From: Tribonema minus
Taxonomy: Eukaryota > Sar > Xanthophyceae > Tribonematales > Tribonemataceae
Assembly: GCA_017506865.1 (NCBI GenBank)
Contig: JAFCMP010000544.1
Coordinates: 186,001-250,000 of the forward strand
Direction: 5' to 3'
Length of the DNA: 64,000 bases
Made by a program: the position numbers and the translations under genes. Positions 30,824 through 53,656 of the stretch are shown piece by piece. The notes beneath the pieces are model-generated. The model did not search any database. It had not been told where the DNA came from and was given only the letters and a program-made list of their open reading frames with translations. Positions within the stretch are counted from its first letter, which is position 1, and each line of letters begins with the position of its first letter.

Positions 30824-33800
30824 ATACACATAGAGGTACTTAAACTGTACACACTGGTAGCTGTAGCATGTAGCACCATGGCGTGGCAGAGATCATGAGA
30901 AGAATACCATGGCGGCGGGCGGCTCGTAAGGCAGCACCTCCTGCCGACACTGAATCAGCGCAGAAATGCAAGGAACCCGATCTAGCGTGTGTACAAGCGC
31001 AGGACATTAGCACCAGTGCTGCAGATGGCAGTGGCGCTTGTCAACAGGACAATGGCACGAGTGGCAGCAGCAAAGTAGCTGGAGACGGACGCGCAGCGCA
31101 CAAACGCAAGAGGGTACAGAATGACGGTTGGTCAATTTCCGATGAAACAGGCGAAGGGGAGCACACGGGCGGCAAAGCGCAGTCAAACGCTCTAGAACAG
31201 GTCAGAACAGTTTGGAACAGCAACGTCTGATGCTAGACGACGAGGCTGGAGGTGGAGGCAGTGCGGACCCGGAGTACAAGTGCAACTTATGCGAGCTCGT
31301 GGTGAGGAAGGGCATGTCGCTGCTCTCGTTACAGCAGAGTTTAAACGCCCACCTCGTGGCGGAGCACCAGCGCGGACACCACAATGGGACAGCAACAACG
31401 TTCCTGGAGCGCCCCGACCTTAGCACCTTGCACTTGCAAACCACCTACACCAAGTGTGCCTTGTGCAAAAGCCTCTTTCATGCAAACAAGACATCCAGGG
31501 TGGACATCAGCAATCCCAGCGCGGGCAAGTGCTGTCGCAACTGCAGGCCTATCACTTCGCCCGCTGCAATGGCGTCAACATTGTCAACACAGCATCAGCA
31601 GTGCCGCTAGCACCTGATGCATCGACGGCAACAGCTACCATGTCGCTACCACAGTAGCAACCGGCGTGCACACCCATCAGCAACCCCTACGCAAAGGGGC
31701 CAGCGCACGAACAGCAGGCACCTGCTGCTCAGGCTGGTGGCAGCAGCTCCTCCGGCAGCTCAACGAGGCCGGAACGCGGGGGCAGCAGTGCTGCTCGGCG
31801 GGGAGGTCGGGGTCGCAGTGGAGGGCGCGGACGTGGCAATGGAGGACGCGTTCGCAGCGGCAGCAATGATGCAGACATCAGCAGTAGCAGAGCGACTAGC
31901 GGCGGCAGACCCGGAGGCGGCAGCAGCAGCGGTGCCGGCGGCGGCAGCAGCAGCGGTGGCGGCGGCGGCAGTACAGCCGGTACTAAAGACAGCGGCGCTG
32001 GCAACGTCCGCAGCAGCGATGCCGACAGCCGCAGCGGCGGTGCTAGCAACAGCGGCAGTGGCGGGCGAAATGAAAACGGCCGCGGTGGCCGTGGCATCGG
32101 CCGCAGCAGCGGCAGCGGTGGAAGAGGCGGTGGTCGTGGCGGCCGCGGCTGCGGCGGAGGGGGCCCCCGAGCGGCAGGTGCAGCGACAGCAGCAGCAGCG
32201 CCTGCAGGTGCAGCAGGTGGGGCATGTGGGCTTTTTGCGTGGACCATCTCAACCCCCGCAGTCGCAGCAGTGCTTGACAGTATCAGCCTAGAGGAGCTGT
32301 GCAAGCTGCAGTTCGCGACAACTAGAAGCCTTGCAAGACCACGCAATCGCCGCTATGTGGGAGCTGCACTGGAGAACGCAGCAACACATCTGTTGGCACA
32401 CACAATGACGATGTTTGTCAATGCGGCACGCGAGCCAGATTCCGCAGGGCGGGTGCAGCGACTGCAAAGAGCCACAGTTCTACACCACCTCATGCCATCA
32501 CTCATCACCTCCACCGATGGCGCACCTGGCATCCCTCGCTCCGACAGAATCAGAATGTTGGCACGCGGTGAGCTCGACCGGTTGGTGCCAGCGCTCCTCG
32601 CACACGCGCGTGCGCACCGGCGCTGGCGCGCGCGCCAGCAAACGGAGGCAGCGATCAACGCCTATGTCCTACAGTGCATGGGCACATGGGGGGGGCTGCA
32701 GCAGGCAGCGCGATTCCTTCAGCTCAAAACGGTGGCGGTACCTGATGACGACTGCTTTGCCGCCATGCAATCCAAACACCCCCCCGCTGCGCCAGGGAAC
32801 AACTACATGAGCTATCCAGCATGGTCAATCAGCTTGTGGCAAAAGCAGCCGATATGCCAGCAGAACTCATCCTATTACAGGGGGAGGGCATCGAGCCAGA
32901 GACGGTTGCCAAGCTCATCCAGCGAGCAAGCCCCTACAGTGGAGCAGGCCCATCGGGGCTGCGCTACAGTCACCTGCAGGATGCACTACGCACAAGCTCG
33001 GGACGGCATGAGTTTGCTGCCGTCCTCACACGGTGGCTTCAGACAGTTATGCGGGAGGCGACGCGGCTCCCGGATGCCTTCTGGCAGTTACATGACGCGG
33101 GGCGCCTGACACCACTTGCAGAACAGCAGGAAGATGGTACAGCTAAACAGCGGCCCATCGTTTGCGGCGAGGTGCTGCAGCGACTATGCACTTCGGTGTA
33201 TGTGGCAGACCGCAAAGACTTTTGGGCGGAGCTCCTTGAACCAGATGGGCAGTATGGGGTAGCTGTCTCAGCAGGAGCGGAGAAAGCGGCCATGGCCGGC
33301 AAACTCGCGTATGAGCTTGGTCGCTGGCAGTTCATGCTGGACCTCAAGAATGCCTTCAACATGGTGTTCGTCCTGCCATGGCGGCAGCGGAATGGGTAGC
33401 AGCACAGCTGCCAGACTTCCTCGACTACTTCATCGGCACATACGTATGCACTCGGCCATGCCTGCTGTTCCAGCATGTCGACGGCTCCACGCGCGTCATC
33501 ATGTCTCAGCGCGGGTTTAAGCAGGGGGACCCCGCGGCACCAATGCTCTTCTGCGGCGCCATTGCTCAGTGCTTGAAACGGTTCAATGAGGCGGCGGCCG
33601 CGCAGCGCGCGCGCAGGCGGATGGGCGCCTACATGGACGACGCCAACGTCCGAACAGGTGCCTGCACGCTGACTCAGGATGACATACAGGCAGTGACACA
33701 GCCCAAACAACACTGTGCGGAGGTGGGGCTGGAGCTAGACCTCACCAAGTCACGCGCGCTGCCTGGCAGGGGGCATGTGGTGACGGACCACGAGCGGCAA

Positions 33801-36395
33801 CTGCTGCAGCAGCTGGGCGTTCAGCTAGTGGGAGATACGGACGAAAATCAGAACCGCGGAGCTGTGTTGCTGGGGGTGCCGGTGGGCCACAGCAGCTTTG
33901 TGGAGGCATGGCTGCGCAGGGAAGCGGGTGACGGCGGGGCAGGGGCTCGATTCGCAGAGCGATGCGCGCGCCTGACATCTCCCCGGGCTATGTTCAGGTT
34001 ACTGCGCTACTGCGTGGTGCCTCGCATGACGTACTGCCTGCGCACCATTCCTACTACACAGACAGCGCCAGCCGCCAAGGAGTGGGATCGGGTCACGCAG
34101 TGGGTGCTCGAACACTCAATGGGCCTGCAGCCACCAGGCCAGACCTGGCGCCAGTTTGAGCAAAGTGGTGCCCGCTTCCATCTGGCAGCGAACGGCCCCG
34201 CCCTACAACAAGCGCGACTCCCAACACGGCATGGCGGCCTTGGCATTACCAGCGCCTGCGACATCGCTGATGCTGAGTATGTGGCGGGCACGCTGCAAGC
34301 GCTGCAACCAGCACTCTCTGGATGGGCGGGGGTGCTGCAGCAGGCAACTCCTCAAGCCGCAGACAACGCTGCTGAGGATGCGGCAACACAAGCGGCGCCG
34401 GCTGCAGCGGCAGTAGCACCAGCACCAGCAGCACCAGCAGCCGCGACTGTTATACTGGCAGCGGCAGCGGCGGTTGCCAGCCTGCAGCGGAGGCGCGACC
34501 GCTCCGCCGGCAGCGGCACCTGCATCAGCGGCAGGCCGCGCTCATGGCGCAGCCATTCCAGCGACACATGGCGCAGCTACCGCTGGATCAGGGGCCGCCG
34601 CGGCAGCACAGGCGGCACCAGCGGCAGCAGCGGCAGCGCACGGCGCAACTACTCCGGCGGCAGCAGCAGCGGCGGCCGCAGCAGCTGCTCCAGCATCAGA
34701 GGCAGCAGCAGCGGCAGCACATGTTGCACCTCAAGCGGCATCGGCGGCATCACTAGCTGCAGCATCACAGCAGCTGCTGCGGGCATAGGCAACACAGCTG
34801 CTCCAGGCCCTACCAGCCTGAGGGCTGCTGCAGCACCTGCAACAGGAGCAGCGGCAGCAGGCGGCGCCGCGACCGTGTCGGCTGCGACAGCGGCGATGGC
34901 GGTGGCAGCGGCCAATGCGGCAGGCGCTGCACCAGCACCTGCGGCAGCAGCGACACCAGCAGCAGCAACAGCAGGCGGCGCAGCTGCTCCAGCGCGCGCA
35001 GCCGCAGCGGCAGCCATCAATGCAGGCGCTGCGCGCTCCACACCAGCAATGCTACAAGGCGCAGCAGCAGCAGAGGTGGCGCGCCTGCCCCTCATGCGGA
35101 CGATCGCCACAGCTGCCGCATCCCTGCGTGCAGCAACACGCGACAAGCTGGAACATATGCTGCCACCAGCGCTCATGCAGCAGCAGCAGCAGCCACATAT
35201 GCAGCAGCCGCCGCCGCGGCCGCCAGCAGGTGGTGGCACCGGTGCGGACGCTGCTCACGGTGTACTTGACGTCAGTGCTCTGCAGTTGCAGTGTTGCCTG
35301 AGGCGCCTCAATCAGAGTGCGCTTGCAGATGCCGTCGCTACCGAGATTGCAGATACAGTGGAGGCGGACCTACAACAGCTGCCGCAGGGCACGCAACGCA
35401 CGCAAGCACTTGCTCGATTCCGGTCGCAGCGCCACATGCACTCGATCGGCATGGCATTCCTCAACGAGCCCATGTACTCCACAACGGCTTCGTTCGATGG
35501 CCTATCCTGGCAGCTGGCCGTCAAACGCGCCATCGGAGTAGAGGAGCACACGGCAGGCTGCAAGCTGTGCAGGAAGTAGCCGGGCGGCACCCTGCATGCA
35601 CGGCTGTGTCAAGCGCCACGCGTCAAGGCGCACGACACCATCGTACACAATACCGTCAAGAGGGCCACGCAGCGCATCCTGCGGCAATACCTCAAAACGG
35701 GACTGGTGGACGAGGACTACACGCCGTTTCTGGGATCCGCCGGGCCGCCGGGGAGTCGCAGGATGGACATCATGCTGCCTGCCGACGCCTTCCCGGTGAC
35801 CGGCTACGACGACCCGACACGTCACCTACTGCTCAAGGTGGGCGTCACCTGCTTCGAGGCACAGGTGGCGTCACGGGCGGCGAAGACTGCAGCAGACCCC
35901 GAGCGCTGCTGCCGCGACCAAGAGGCCGCCAAATTATCCCACTATTCTGGTCATTATGACTAGAATTGCTACAAACTTGCCACTTTGGCAGTCGGGTCTT
36001 TCGGCAGCATCGGGGAGAAGGGGCGGAAGCTGCTGGAGGCTGTGGCGACGGAGTATGCCGGCAGGATGTCAGTGCCCGGAGGAGCGCGCCCTAAAGCTCT
36101 TAAGGGCATCGCCCTGGCGCGCTTACGCTCGGCACTGTCGGCAGCGCTCCTCATGGCGTACTCTGGCCGTGTTATGACACACATGGCAGAATCCAGGGGG
36201 GGGGGGCACATGGAGGAGGACGTAGGGGAGGATCCCGAGATGCCATTTGGCGGCGGCGGCGTTTGAGTGGTTGTCGTTGAGACACTTTCAGAAGTCACAC
36301 GACATGTAGATTCCGCACAGCAGCATCAAGAGCATCAAGTTGGACCATCATCTGGGCTTTTTCGCGCCCTGAGCGAGAATTAATAAGAAGTACTA
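30824..36395 (+). mobile_element. Long R2-like LINE with REL endonuclease, broken
   Basis: In order it encodes: a basic N-terminus with KRKR (30895-31230); a C2H2-type finger CNLCELVV...HLVAEH and a second CALCKSLFH (31280-31480); an Arg/Gly-rich RGG stretch (31736-32190, RRGGRGRSGGRGRG); reverse transcriptase with PSGLRYSHLQ, RPIVCGEVLQRL, MLDLKNAFN, GFKQGDPAAPMLF and the catalytic-box-like AYMDDANV (32900-33660); a 230-residue Ala-rich insert (34380-35080); a CCHC knuckle CKLC...HARLC (35560-35610); a restriction-like endonuclease with SRRMDIML and GVTCFEA (35740-35900); and the FGSIGEKGRKLL helix to a stop at 36266. The 3' UTR ends GAATTAATAAGAAGTAC. Frame changes near 31200, 31500, 32810 and 33390, and stops at 31655, 35579 and about 35963, make it non-functional. 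This fits REL-type LINEs such as R2/NeSL; the clade was not fixed. Confidence 0.85.
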
Positions 36396-52024: not shown

Positions 52025-53656
52025 TCAACCATCCTCACCCAACAAGGATTGTGCTTGCTGTAGCAACTCCTCTCTCTCCTCTGCCGAGCACAGCCGCGGT
52101 GCAGCTGAACCGTGCTCCCATACAAGCACCTCAAGCGTGTCTGCAGTCAGTGGTTTCAATTTGACGCTGCTGTGAGCATGCTTGGCTGACCCCATTGCTG
52201 ACAGTGTCGCCTTGGTGATACAGCATACGCAGAGTCTGGCACACTCTTTCCAGTCCCCTTCCCAAGCGCCCACTTGCTGCCCTTGCGCTGCTTGCGACTC
52301 AAACCTGCATTACAACATGAGAGCACCAACAACAGCATCGACAAAGGTCAATACCGTGGATGACCGCACTAAATTTCATTGACTCTATTCTTGCAATATG
52401 ATGTGGTAAGTGCGCTCATTCACACCAAATTCCCAGCAGCATACATCATCTACTCCATGAGCTGAAGCGCTTGAACGTACCAACATGTAGGTCATGGGGC
52501 TGCTCTCTGTGCATAATCCATCAAGTACTGTGTGATTGCTACTCACTTCTTCTGCAGCCAGTTGCTGGCAGAGCCCATGCCCCTCCCTGCAGTCCCTGCC
52601 CACAAGTCAAAGCTCTGGCCCGTTGGGTCAATGCGTGTGAGCATTGGGCTCTCGCCCTCGCCACCCACGTACGCCAGAAAGCAGCTGCAGCCCAAAGGCC
52701 TGTGTTTGCCGCCCTGTGTCGGTGCCTGCGCCAGGTCTGCCGCATCCTTAGCCAGCAGCTTTCCCGGAATGACATATCCCATTGTCTGCAATCAACGTCA
52801 AATGCGATGGCACGAGTTTGTCAAGGAGGTGCAGAGCACAGGGCCAGCGCTTGGGACGTGCGTCTGAGCAGCTTTGCGCACAATTCAGAGCGTGAGTGAC
52901 AGCGCTGCATCTATGACCATGTCAGAGGCGGATTACTGGTGTAGATCTGATGCTGACCGACATGCACGATTTCCGCACACAGCATGAGTTGCGTGGGCTA
53001 GCCTCAACATTAGTGCTCGATAATTTGAGCAAGCCTAGTTTTCTGATACATTGGCAAACACACAAATGTCAACAACAACTCAGAACTTTGATGCTGCGCG
53101 CTCAGCAGCAGCTGCAGCATAACATCGTTGAAACATCAGTTAGTGGTGCACGAACTAGATTCGGTACTGTGTCCTCGAGGGGGGGTCTCACCTGCTTGAA
53201 TTTGAGGGCAAGGTGCCTGAGGAGCTCAGCCTGGTAAGTGACATCAGCGGCATAGCCACTGCCTCCCATCCATGAGCTCGCACTGATTTTGTGCAAGTTG
53301 GTGACAGTGGATGGCACACCACCCTCAGCAACTAGTTTTCGAGCAGCAATCACCACGCAGCTCCTGCCCTGCACCGCCGCGAGCGGTGCGCCATAATGCG
53401 ACACCGCATTCTGGGCATATTCTGCGTAGACATTTGCACACAAAATAGAGGGTGTAGATCCATGTATCATATGCAAGAACTGCAAGCATTGCTCTGGTTA
53501 TATCGTCCTCTCACCTATTTGGTGCAGCCGGCCTTGAGGGCTGAACGTACAGCCCTGGTCATATCCCTTGGCGTCCGTGCTGGACGCGGACGAGTGGAGG
53601 CAACAGCAGCTAAGAAATACCGTGGCAGCCACCAGCACCTGCAGCTTCGCCATCAT
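52025..53656 (-). CDS. Proteasome alpha-subunit-like protein with N-terminal signal peptide
   Basis: Four exons (53656-53515, 53421-53192, 52785-52547, 52304-52025) join in phase to 296 residues. Residues 1-26 look like a classical signal peptide: MMAK, then a hydrophobic LQVLVAATVFLSCCCL and a small-residue SSASS. From residue 31 the alpha-type N-terminal signature follows, GYDQGCTFSPQGRLHQIEYA, with EYA rebuilt exactly across intron 1. Further landmarks are VQGRSCVVIAARK, GYVIPGKLLAKDAADLAQ, TQGGKHRPLGCS, RIDPTGQSF, NWLQKK, and the C-terminal TADTLEVLVWEHG with an acidic helix. Alpha subunits form the outer rings of the 20S core and are not catalytic; they normally have no leader and about 240-260 residues. 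The body is diverged, and I could not assign it to one of alpha 1-7. All introns have GT-AG ends. It may be a paralogue sent to the secretory route. Confidence 0.82.

Follow-up and report, generated by a model that had tools for sequence, protein, structure and literature searches.

The periplastidial compartment of plastid-bearing heterokonts has been reported to contain only the 20S core subunits of the proteasome, which are encoded by the host and carried by signal peptides, and the proteasomes of three cryptophytes are encoded by their nucleomorphs (PMC5070193). According to that paper, no signal-bearing proteasome was found in Emiliania huxleyi, and heterokonts are said usually to possess two symbiont variants of Cdc48 in addition to the host one. 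A second paper describes the diatom 20S proteasomes of this compartment as lacking a cap and the heterokont one as 'degenerate', with two proteins of the heterokont periplastidial proteasome localised (PMC5756292). Leaders that direct proteins to the plastid are separated from periplastidial ones by the residue at +1 (Phe, Tyr, Trp or Leu), according to PMC12136025 and PMC11528492. Heterokonts differ among themselves in their import machinery, since Nannochloropsis is reported to lack major SELMA components (PMC6610115). From PMC7168155, PMC6610115 and PMC5462543, nothing further on this proteasome was obtained.

The locus described here lies in the window, by which we mean the whole stretch of 64,000 nucleotides that was analysed, and it encodes a 20S proteasome alpha subunit preceded by a predicted leader. 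Like the heterokont periplastidial 20S proteasome (PMC5070193, PMC5756292), the system consists of nucleus-encoded core copies that have predicted signal peptides and accompany the cytosolic ones, and its host is an alga whose plastid is of the red complex type; its transit-peptide-like part is very short, and its periplastidial location is putative. With the nucleomorph-encoded proteasome of cryptophytes (PMC5070193) it would share, if its location is read correctly, both the compartment and the status of an additional, symbiont proteasome, whereas the leader-bearing genes of the present genome, whose introns are often long, are taken as nuclear. The window protein resembles canonical PSMA6 (alpha-1) in its domains, its signature, its type clade and the first intron position of the organism's own copy, and differs from it in the leader, an identity of ~30% and a diverged C-terminus.

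The gene occupies positions 53656-52025 of the minus strand, where four exons join in frame to give an open frame of 296 residues that ends in a TGA stop at 52025; all three introns have GT-AG borders. Its features are as follows.

53515..53656, minus strand: exon 1, leader and beginning of the alpha N-terminal signature
53579..53656, minus strand: leader, residues 1-26, signal-peptide-like by a von Heijne matrix
53405..53563, minus strand: Proteasome_A_N signature, residues 32-53, YDQGCTFSPQGRLHQIEYAQNA, E=3.1e-10, split by intron 1
53422..53514, minus strand: intron 1, 93 bases, GTGAGA...ACGCAG, phase 1
53192..53421, minus strand: exon 2, alpha body, by joined frame and Pfam match
52786..53191, minus strand: intron 2, 406 bases
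52547..52785, minus strand: exon 3, alpha body, by joined frame and Pfam match
52305..52546, minus strand: intron 3, 242 bases
52025..52304, minus strand: exon 4, C-terminal alpha region and TGA, less conserved and almost wholly beyond the Pfam match

Both Pfam domains of the 296-residue protein exceed their cut-offs (Proteasome, PF00227, E=2.7e-21; Proteasome_A_N, PF10584, E=3.1e-10), and the G+C content at third positions of the coding frame is 0.65 versus 0.48 in the introns. The nearest in-frame stop lies 8 codons upstream of the first ATG; after residues 1-2, the next Met is residue 99, beyond the signature, so that none separates the leader from the signature. Leaders were scored with a von Heijne matrix against a null set of 329 ATG-started open reading frames of the window. 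The window leader scores 6.89, with a predicted cut between MMAKLQVLVAATVFLSCCCLHSSASS and TDAKG (SASS/TDAKG) and thus Thr at +1. Its score and hydrophobicity are matched by 4 of the 329 frames including the leader itself, that is, by 3 of 328 others, some of which may be real genes. The canonical alphas A1-A6 of the same genome score from -3.2 to 2.4 (A7 is omitted), and the window gene, with its predicted leader, departs from canonical cytosolic alphas, in which no cleavable leader is expected before the signature. Clean exons, an intact alpha signature and a leader of about 26 residues placed in the same exon as the start of that signature had all been part of the original prediction, and they stand. 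The gene is a real 20S proteasome alpha subunit, and its leader is predicted from sequence to be secretory.

Elsewhere in the genome (G000:C445:1682235-1682446; L051, L054), exon 3 of this gene recurs together with the end of intron 2 as a disrupted copy at the DNA level, with 50-53% protein identity in two overlapping frames, one of which contains two stops; its intron part was judged by eye, and the copy is a pseudogene fragment. Elsewhere in the window, the plus-strand stretch 31658-35579 has a high G+C content, contains frames of low complexity and weakly matches a reverse transcriptase (PF00078, 28.5 bits, under the cut-off of 29.6); it is perhaps a retroelement remnant.

Comparison with solved structures placed the window protein closest to alpha type-6, the name borne by nine of the best ten matches (97-99 bits; the next match has 80.2), the tenth being an 'alpha type' without a number. 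A phylogeny with all seven alpha types was built from 20 rows, namely seven canonical alphas of the genome, six extra ones and seven human sequences. In this tree, the window gene falls in the type 6 clade with support of 100/100, and the six extra alphas are spread over the canonical type clades, no two of them in the same one (A4' 100/100, A7' 98/100, A3' 98/98, A2' 95/96, A5' 92/93). The types given by the best solved structures agree with the tree for all six, although a few of these best rows, including the top row of one search, lack a type number. Alpha 4' is typed as 4 by both approaches despite being slightly more similar to the organism's own type 5 (36.0% identity) than to its own type 4 (33.7%). 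The branch of the window gene, 2.37, is the longest among the six extra alphas. Judged by its sequence, the window gene is a type 6 alpha (PSMA6; alpha-1 in systematic naming).

A search of the genome (G000, 158 Mb) for the alpha signature gave 13 matches at E < 0.003 and two more, on C45 and C167, near E=0.6. Seven of the 13 loci are canonical, one per type (scores of 615-705 versus human), and six are diverged, representing types 2, 3, 4, 5 and 7 (scores of 275-369) and type 6, the window gene. Among the beta subunits, canonical types 1, 2, 3, 4, 6 and 7 were modelled, several of them partially (48.5-72% human identity over 107-210 residues), and for canonical type 5, matching exons were located at C201:873037-876683 (49-77%). 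Extra copies of beta types 2, 3, 4, 5 and 6 share 32-54% identity with human, the least diverged being beta-5' and beta-2' (53.5% each). The separation of canonical from extra beta type 6 is a judgement based on identity (49.5% versus 41.2%) and on the leader. The types of beta-4' and beta-6' were confirmed by solved structures, and those of beta-2' and beta-3' rest on human sequences, as does that of beta-5', since its structure search at E 1e-60, too strict a cut-off, returned no match. Overall, all 14 canonical types and 11 of 14 extra types (alpha 2-7, beta 2-6) were found, the extra loci numbering 13 if tandem copies of beta-2' are counted. On C223, beta-2'-like exons are matched three times for the N-terminus and three times for the C-terminus, so that beta-2' apparently exists in three tandem copies, of which one was modelled, partially; these beta-2'-like copies, at G000:C223:32962-65868, have long introns.

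Extra copies of PSMA1, beta-1 and beta-7 were not found in a genome search with the own canonical and human sequences, which returned only typed loci plus the canonical beta-5 locus through its beta-5 part. A relaxed Pfam search of the genome gave 66 matches, with a weak one at C73:159426 (E=1.88) as the sole new locus. On viral contigs, three stretches fit a pattern and none of them encodes a relative.

Leaders similar to that of the window gene precede most of the extra subunits. In frame with the body, they score 9.61 (alpha 3'), 3.48 (alpha 5') and 8.81 (alpha 7') besides the 6.89 of alpha 6', and 8.63, 11.63, 5.53 and 3.31 in beta 2', 3', 4' and 5', respectively; the leader of beta 6' (4.55) is joined across one GT-AG intron that was read by eye. 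Leaders were therefore found in 9 of 11 extra types, directly or over one intron. For the remaining two, alpha 4' (3.10) and alpha 2' (4.30), the leader exons are putative, with scores equalled by 27 and 20 of the 329 null frames, respectively, and the same scan also proposed such an exon for one canonical locus out of six. The customary threshold of the von Heijne score is 3.5; alpha 5', beta 5' and alpha 4' fall under it, and 24 of the 329 null frames pass it with a hydrophobicity of 1.8. Further proteins combining a leader with Proteasome_A_N, which the original prediction had suggested looking for, are alpha 3', 5' and 7', with alpha 2' and 4' as candidates. In six of the seven canonical alpha models, Met is at its normal place, those of A3 and A5 being reached through very short first exons picked by the aligner. 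At the predicted +1, Phe, Tyr, Trp and Leu are absent from all 11 extra leaders, and a light-harvesting leader of the same genome has Phe there. The predicted cut is separated from the alpha signature by 4-6 residues in alpha 3', 6' and 7' (five in the window gene), so these proteins have no clear transit-peptide-like part, and the leader, taken by itself, would be compatible with plain secretion.

Two leaders contain RGG stretches, ILLRLRGGD in the putative alpha-2' leader (L068) and LFRFRGGG in that of beta-5' (L003), which resemble the C-terminus of ubiquitin. Upstream of the beta-6 gene taken as canonical (L022, on G000:C35) lies an open frame whose first residues, MRLLLSGCIACARSG..., are mildly hydrophobic, with a 12-residue hydrophobicity of 1.72.

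Both catalytic types found in the extra set retain their catalytic residues: beta-5' starts as HG/TTT, has Thr1, Asp17 and Lys33, and keeps the aligned RDAYSGG motif, and beta-2', of which 92 residues were modelled, starts as TG/TTI with the same three residues. In both, Thr1 is preceded by Gly. The only beta-7 gene found (L016, on G000:C224) has an in-frame upstream ATG with a leader, MPKRHWPLYLSLALFLRLLLMIGLAPSRSHG..., that scores 8.38 and is equalled by 1 of 329 null frames; an internal Met (MDAPRQRTQSPIV...) lies downstream of it, near the usual start. This gene may possibly give two products, or may carry an untranslated leader by chance. A more speculative scheme, which we regard as improbable, is that this one gene, through a cytosolic and a leader-bearing form, feeds two proteasomes, the second being an active core that lacks a cap, has beta-2' and beta-5' sites and is docked by a second Cdc48.

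Among the 92 light-harvesting matches of the genome, a single gene was read. Its top five matches to solved structures are fucoxanthin proteins (177-193 bits; the next has 126), the top chains of which come from diatoms, and its leader, ...LLAAPAAA/FVPVTP, has the Ala-Phe cut of red complex plastids, the start exon of the gene being missing from the model. The organism therefore looks, from its genes, like a heterokont-type alga with a red complex plastid, the choice of heterokonts over another red-plastid group resting on the best matches of that single gene. A green algal host, which the original prediction had implied, is rejected on the light-harvesting type and leader. No match to RbcS was found in the genome, which supports this weakly because the assembly may lack the plastid genome.

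As to import machinery, there are two CDC48_N loci, one of which is diverged. Derlin matches lie on three contigs, with one contig matched twice. These loci, none with a demonstrated leader, would fit an ERAD-like import machine. The diverged Cdc48 N-domain exon (L079, G000:C215:14500-15350), adjoined by partly repeated copies, is a candidate symbiont-type Cdc48. The derlin gene at G000:C94:241674-279887 is doubled and inverted, its two copies lying ~36 kb apart with identical scores.

The extra alphas are about equally distant from the own canonical proteins (28-38% identity) and from human ones (27-39%), whereas the canonical alphas are 53-64% identical to human. In the alpha tree, canonical A2, A3 and A5 join their human counterparts in groups that leave out the extra copies (95/92, 97/94 and 95/90, respectively). 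That the canonical type 6 gene was duplicated recently is disfavoured by these identities and by the tree. Another question is whether the extra set arose by lineage-specific duplication and retargeting of host proteasome genes rather than from genes of the red algal symbiont; such an origin concerns the source of the genes and not their location, and is compatible with the explanation preferred below. The first introns of A6 and A6' have an identical alignment position and phase, which speaks for duplication, but exact sharing is limited to this one of six own canonical/extra pairs, four cross-type position matches between extra and canonical genes occur too, and the comparison is weak because A3' is intronless and because questionable, very short exons or unusual splice sites occur in the alpha 2', 5' and 7' models. 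Likewise, no starred branch bars A4', A6' and A7' from grouping with the own canonical gene. Against duplication stand the equal distances and the exclusion of the extra copies by canonical A2, A3 and A5 with human, an argument weakened by the long branches of these copies. We consider the host-duplication origin possible, though the less favoured one.

The window gene is probably the type 6 alpha of a second 20S core situated in the periplastidial compartment, the remnant cytoplasm around the plastid. The signal peptide would route the subunit via the ER, and the assembled core would digest proteins of the compartment, perhaps fed by the second Cdc48; the location, assembly, activity and Cdc48 supply of this core are what we infer. 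Since heterokont periplastidial 20S subunits with signal peptides are already reported, the extra set is most likely another case of a known kind. The main alternative, which seems unlikely, is a truly secretory proteasome located in the ER lumen, in the vacuole or outside the cell, for which the leaders would be plain signal peptides. It would account for alpha 3', 6' and 7' having a very short transit-peptide-like stretch, or none, behind the predicted cut, and the two CDC48_N loci are fewer than expected for a periplastidial system from PMC5070193, which slightly lowers the odds of the latter and slightly raises those of plain secretion. However, the host has a red complex plastid, heterokonts provide the precedent (PMC5070193, PMC5756292), and no lumenal 20S proteasome is named in the results of the literature searches.

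The original prediction of a lone secretory or vacuolar paralogue with a new, non-proteasomal role would suit the diverged body and long branch of the window gene, but its place in an extra set of 11 types that spans both rings and includes two types with catalytic residues makes this very improbable; nor is a new role needed, given the signal-peptide-bearing 20S subunits reported for the periplastidial compartment of plastid-bearing heterokonts (PMC5070193, PMC5756292). A mis-annotated leader on a cytosolic product, as would follow if an unseen upstream exon spliced in past it, is hardly credible given the lack of a Met between leader and signature, similar leaders in 9 of 11 extra types and a separate canonical type 6 gene, and with a full canonical alpha set in the genome the window gene is not a sole alpha with a mis-read start, a possibility that had been raised at the outset.

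We claim no priority for this inventory of extra 20S subunits in one genome. It provides a large share of the parts list (11 of 14 types) for a second, leader-bearing 20S core. With the catalytic residues preserved in both catalytic types found, it allows one to ask if the periplastidial proteasome termed 'degenerate' is in fact active as a particle, how it would function without a cap and how ERAD-like import would escape digestion. If the beta-7 scheme were true, the extra core would be completed by shared subunits, and one gene would serve two compartments.
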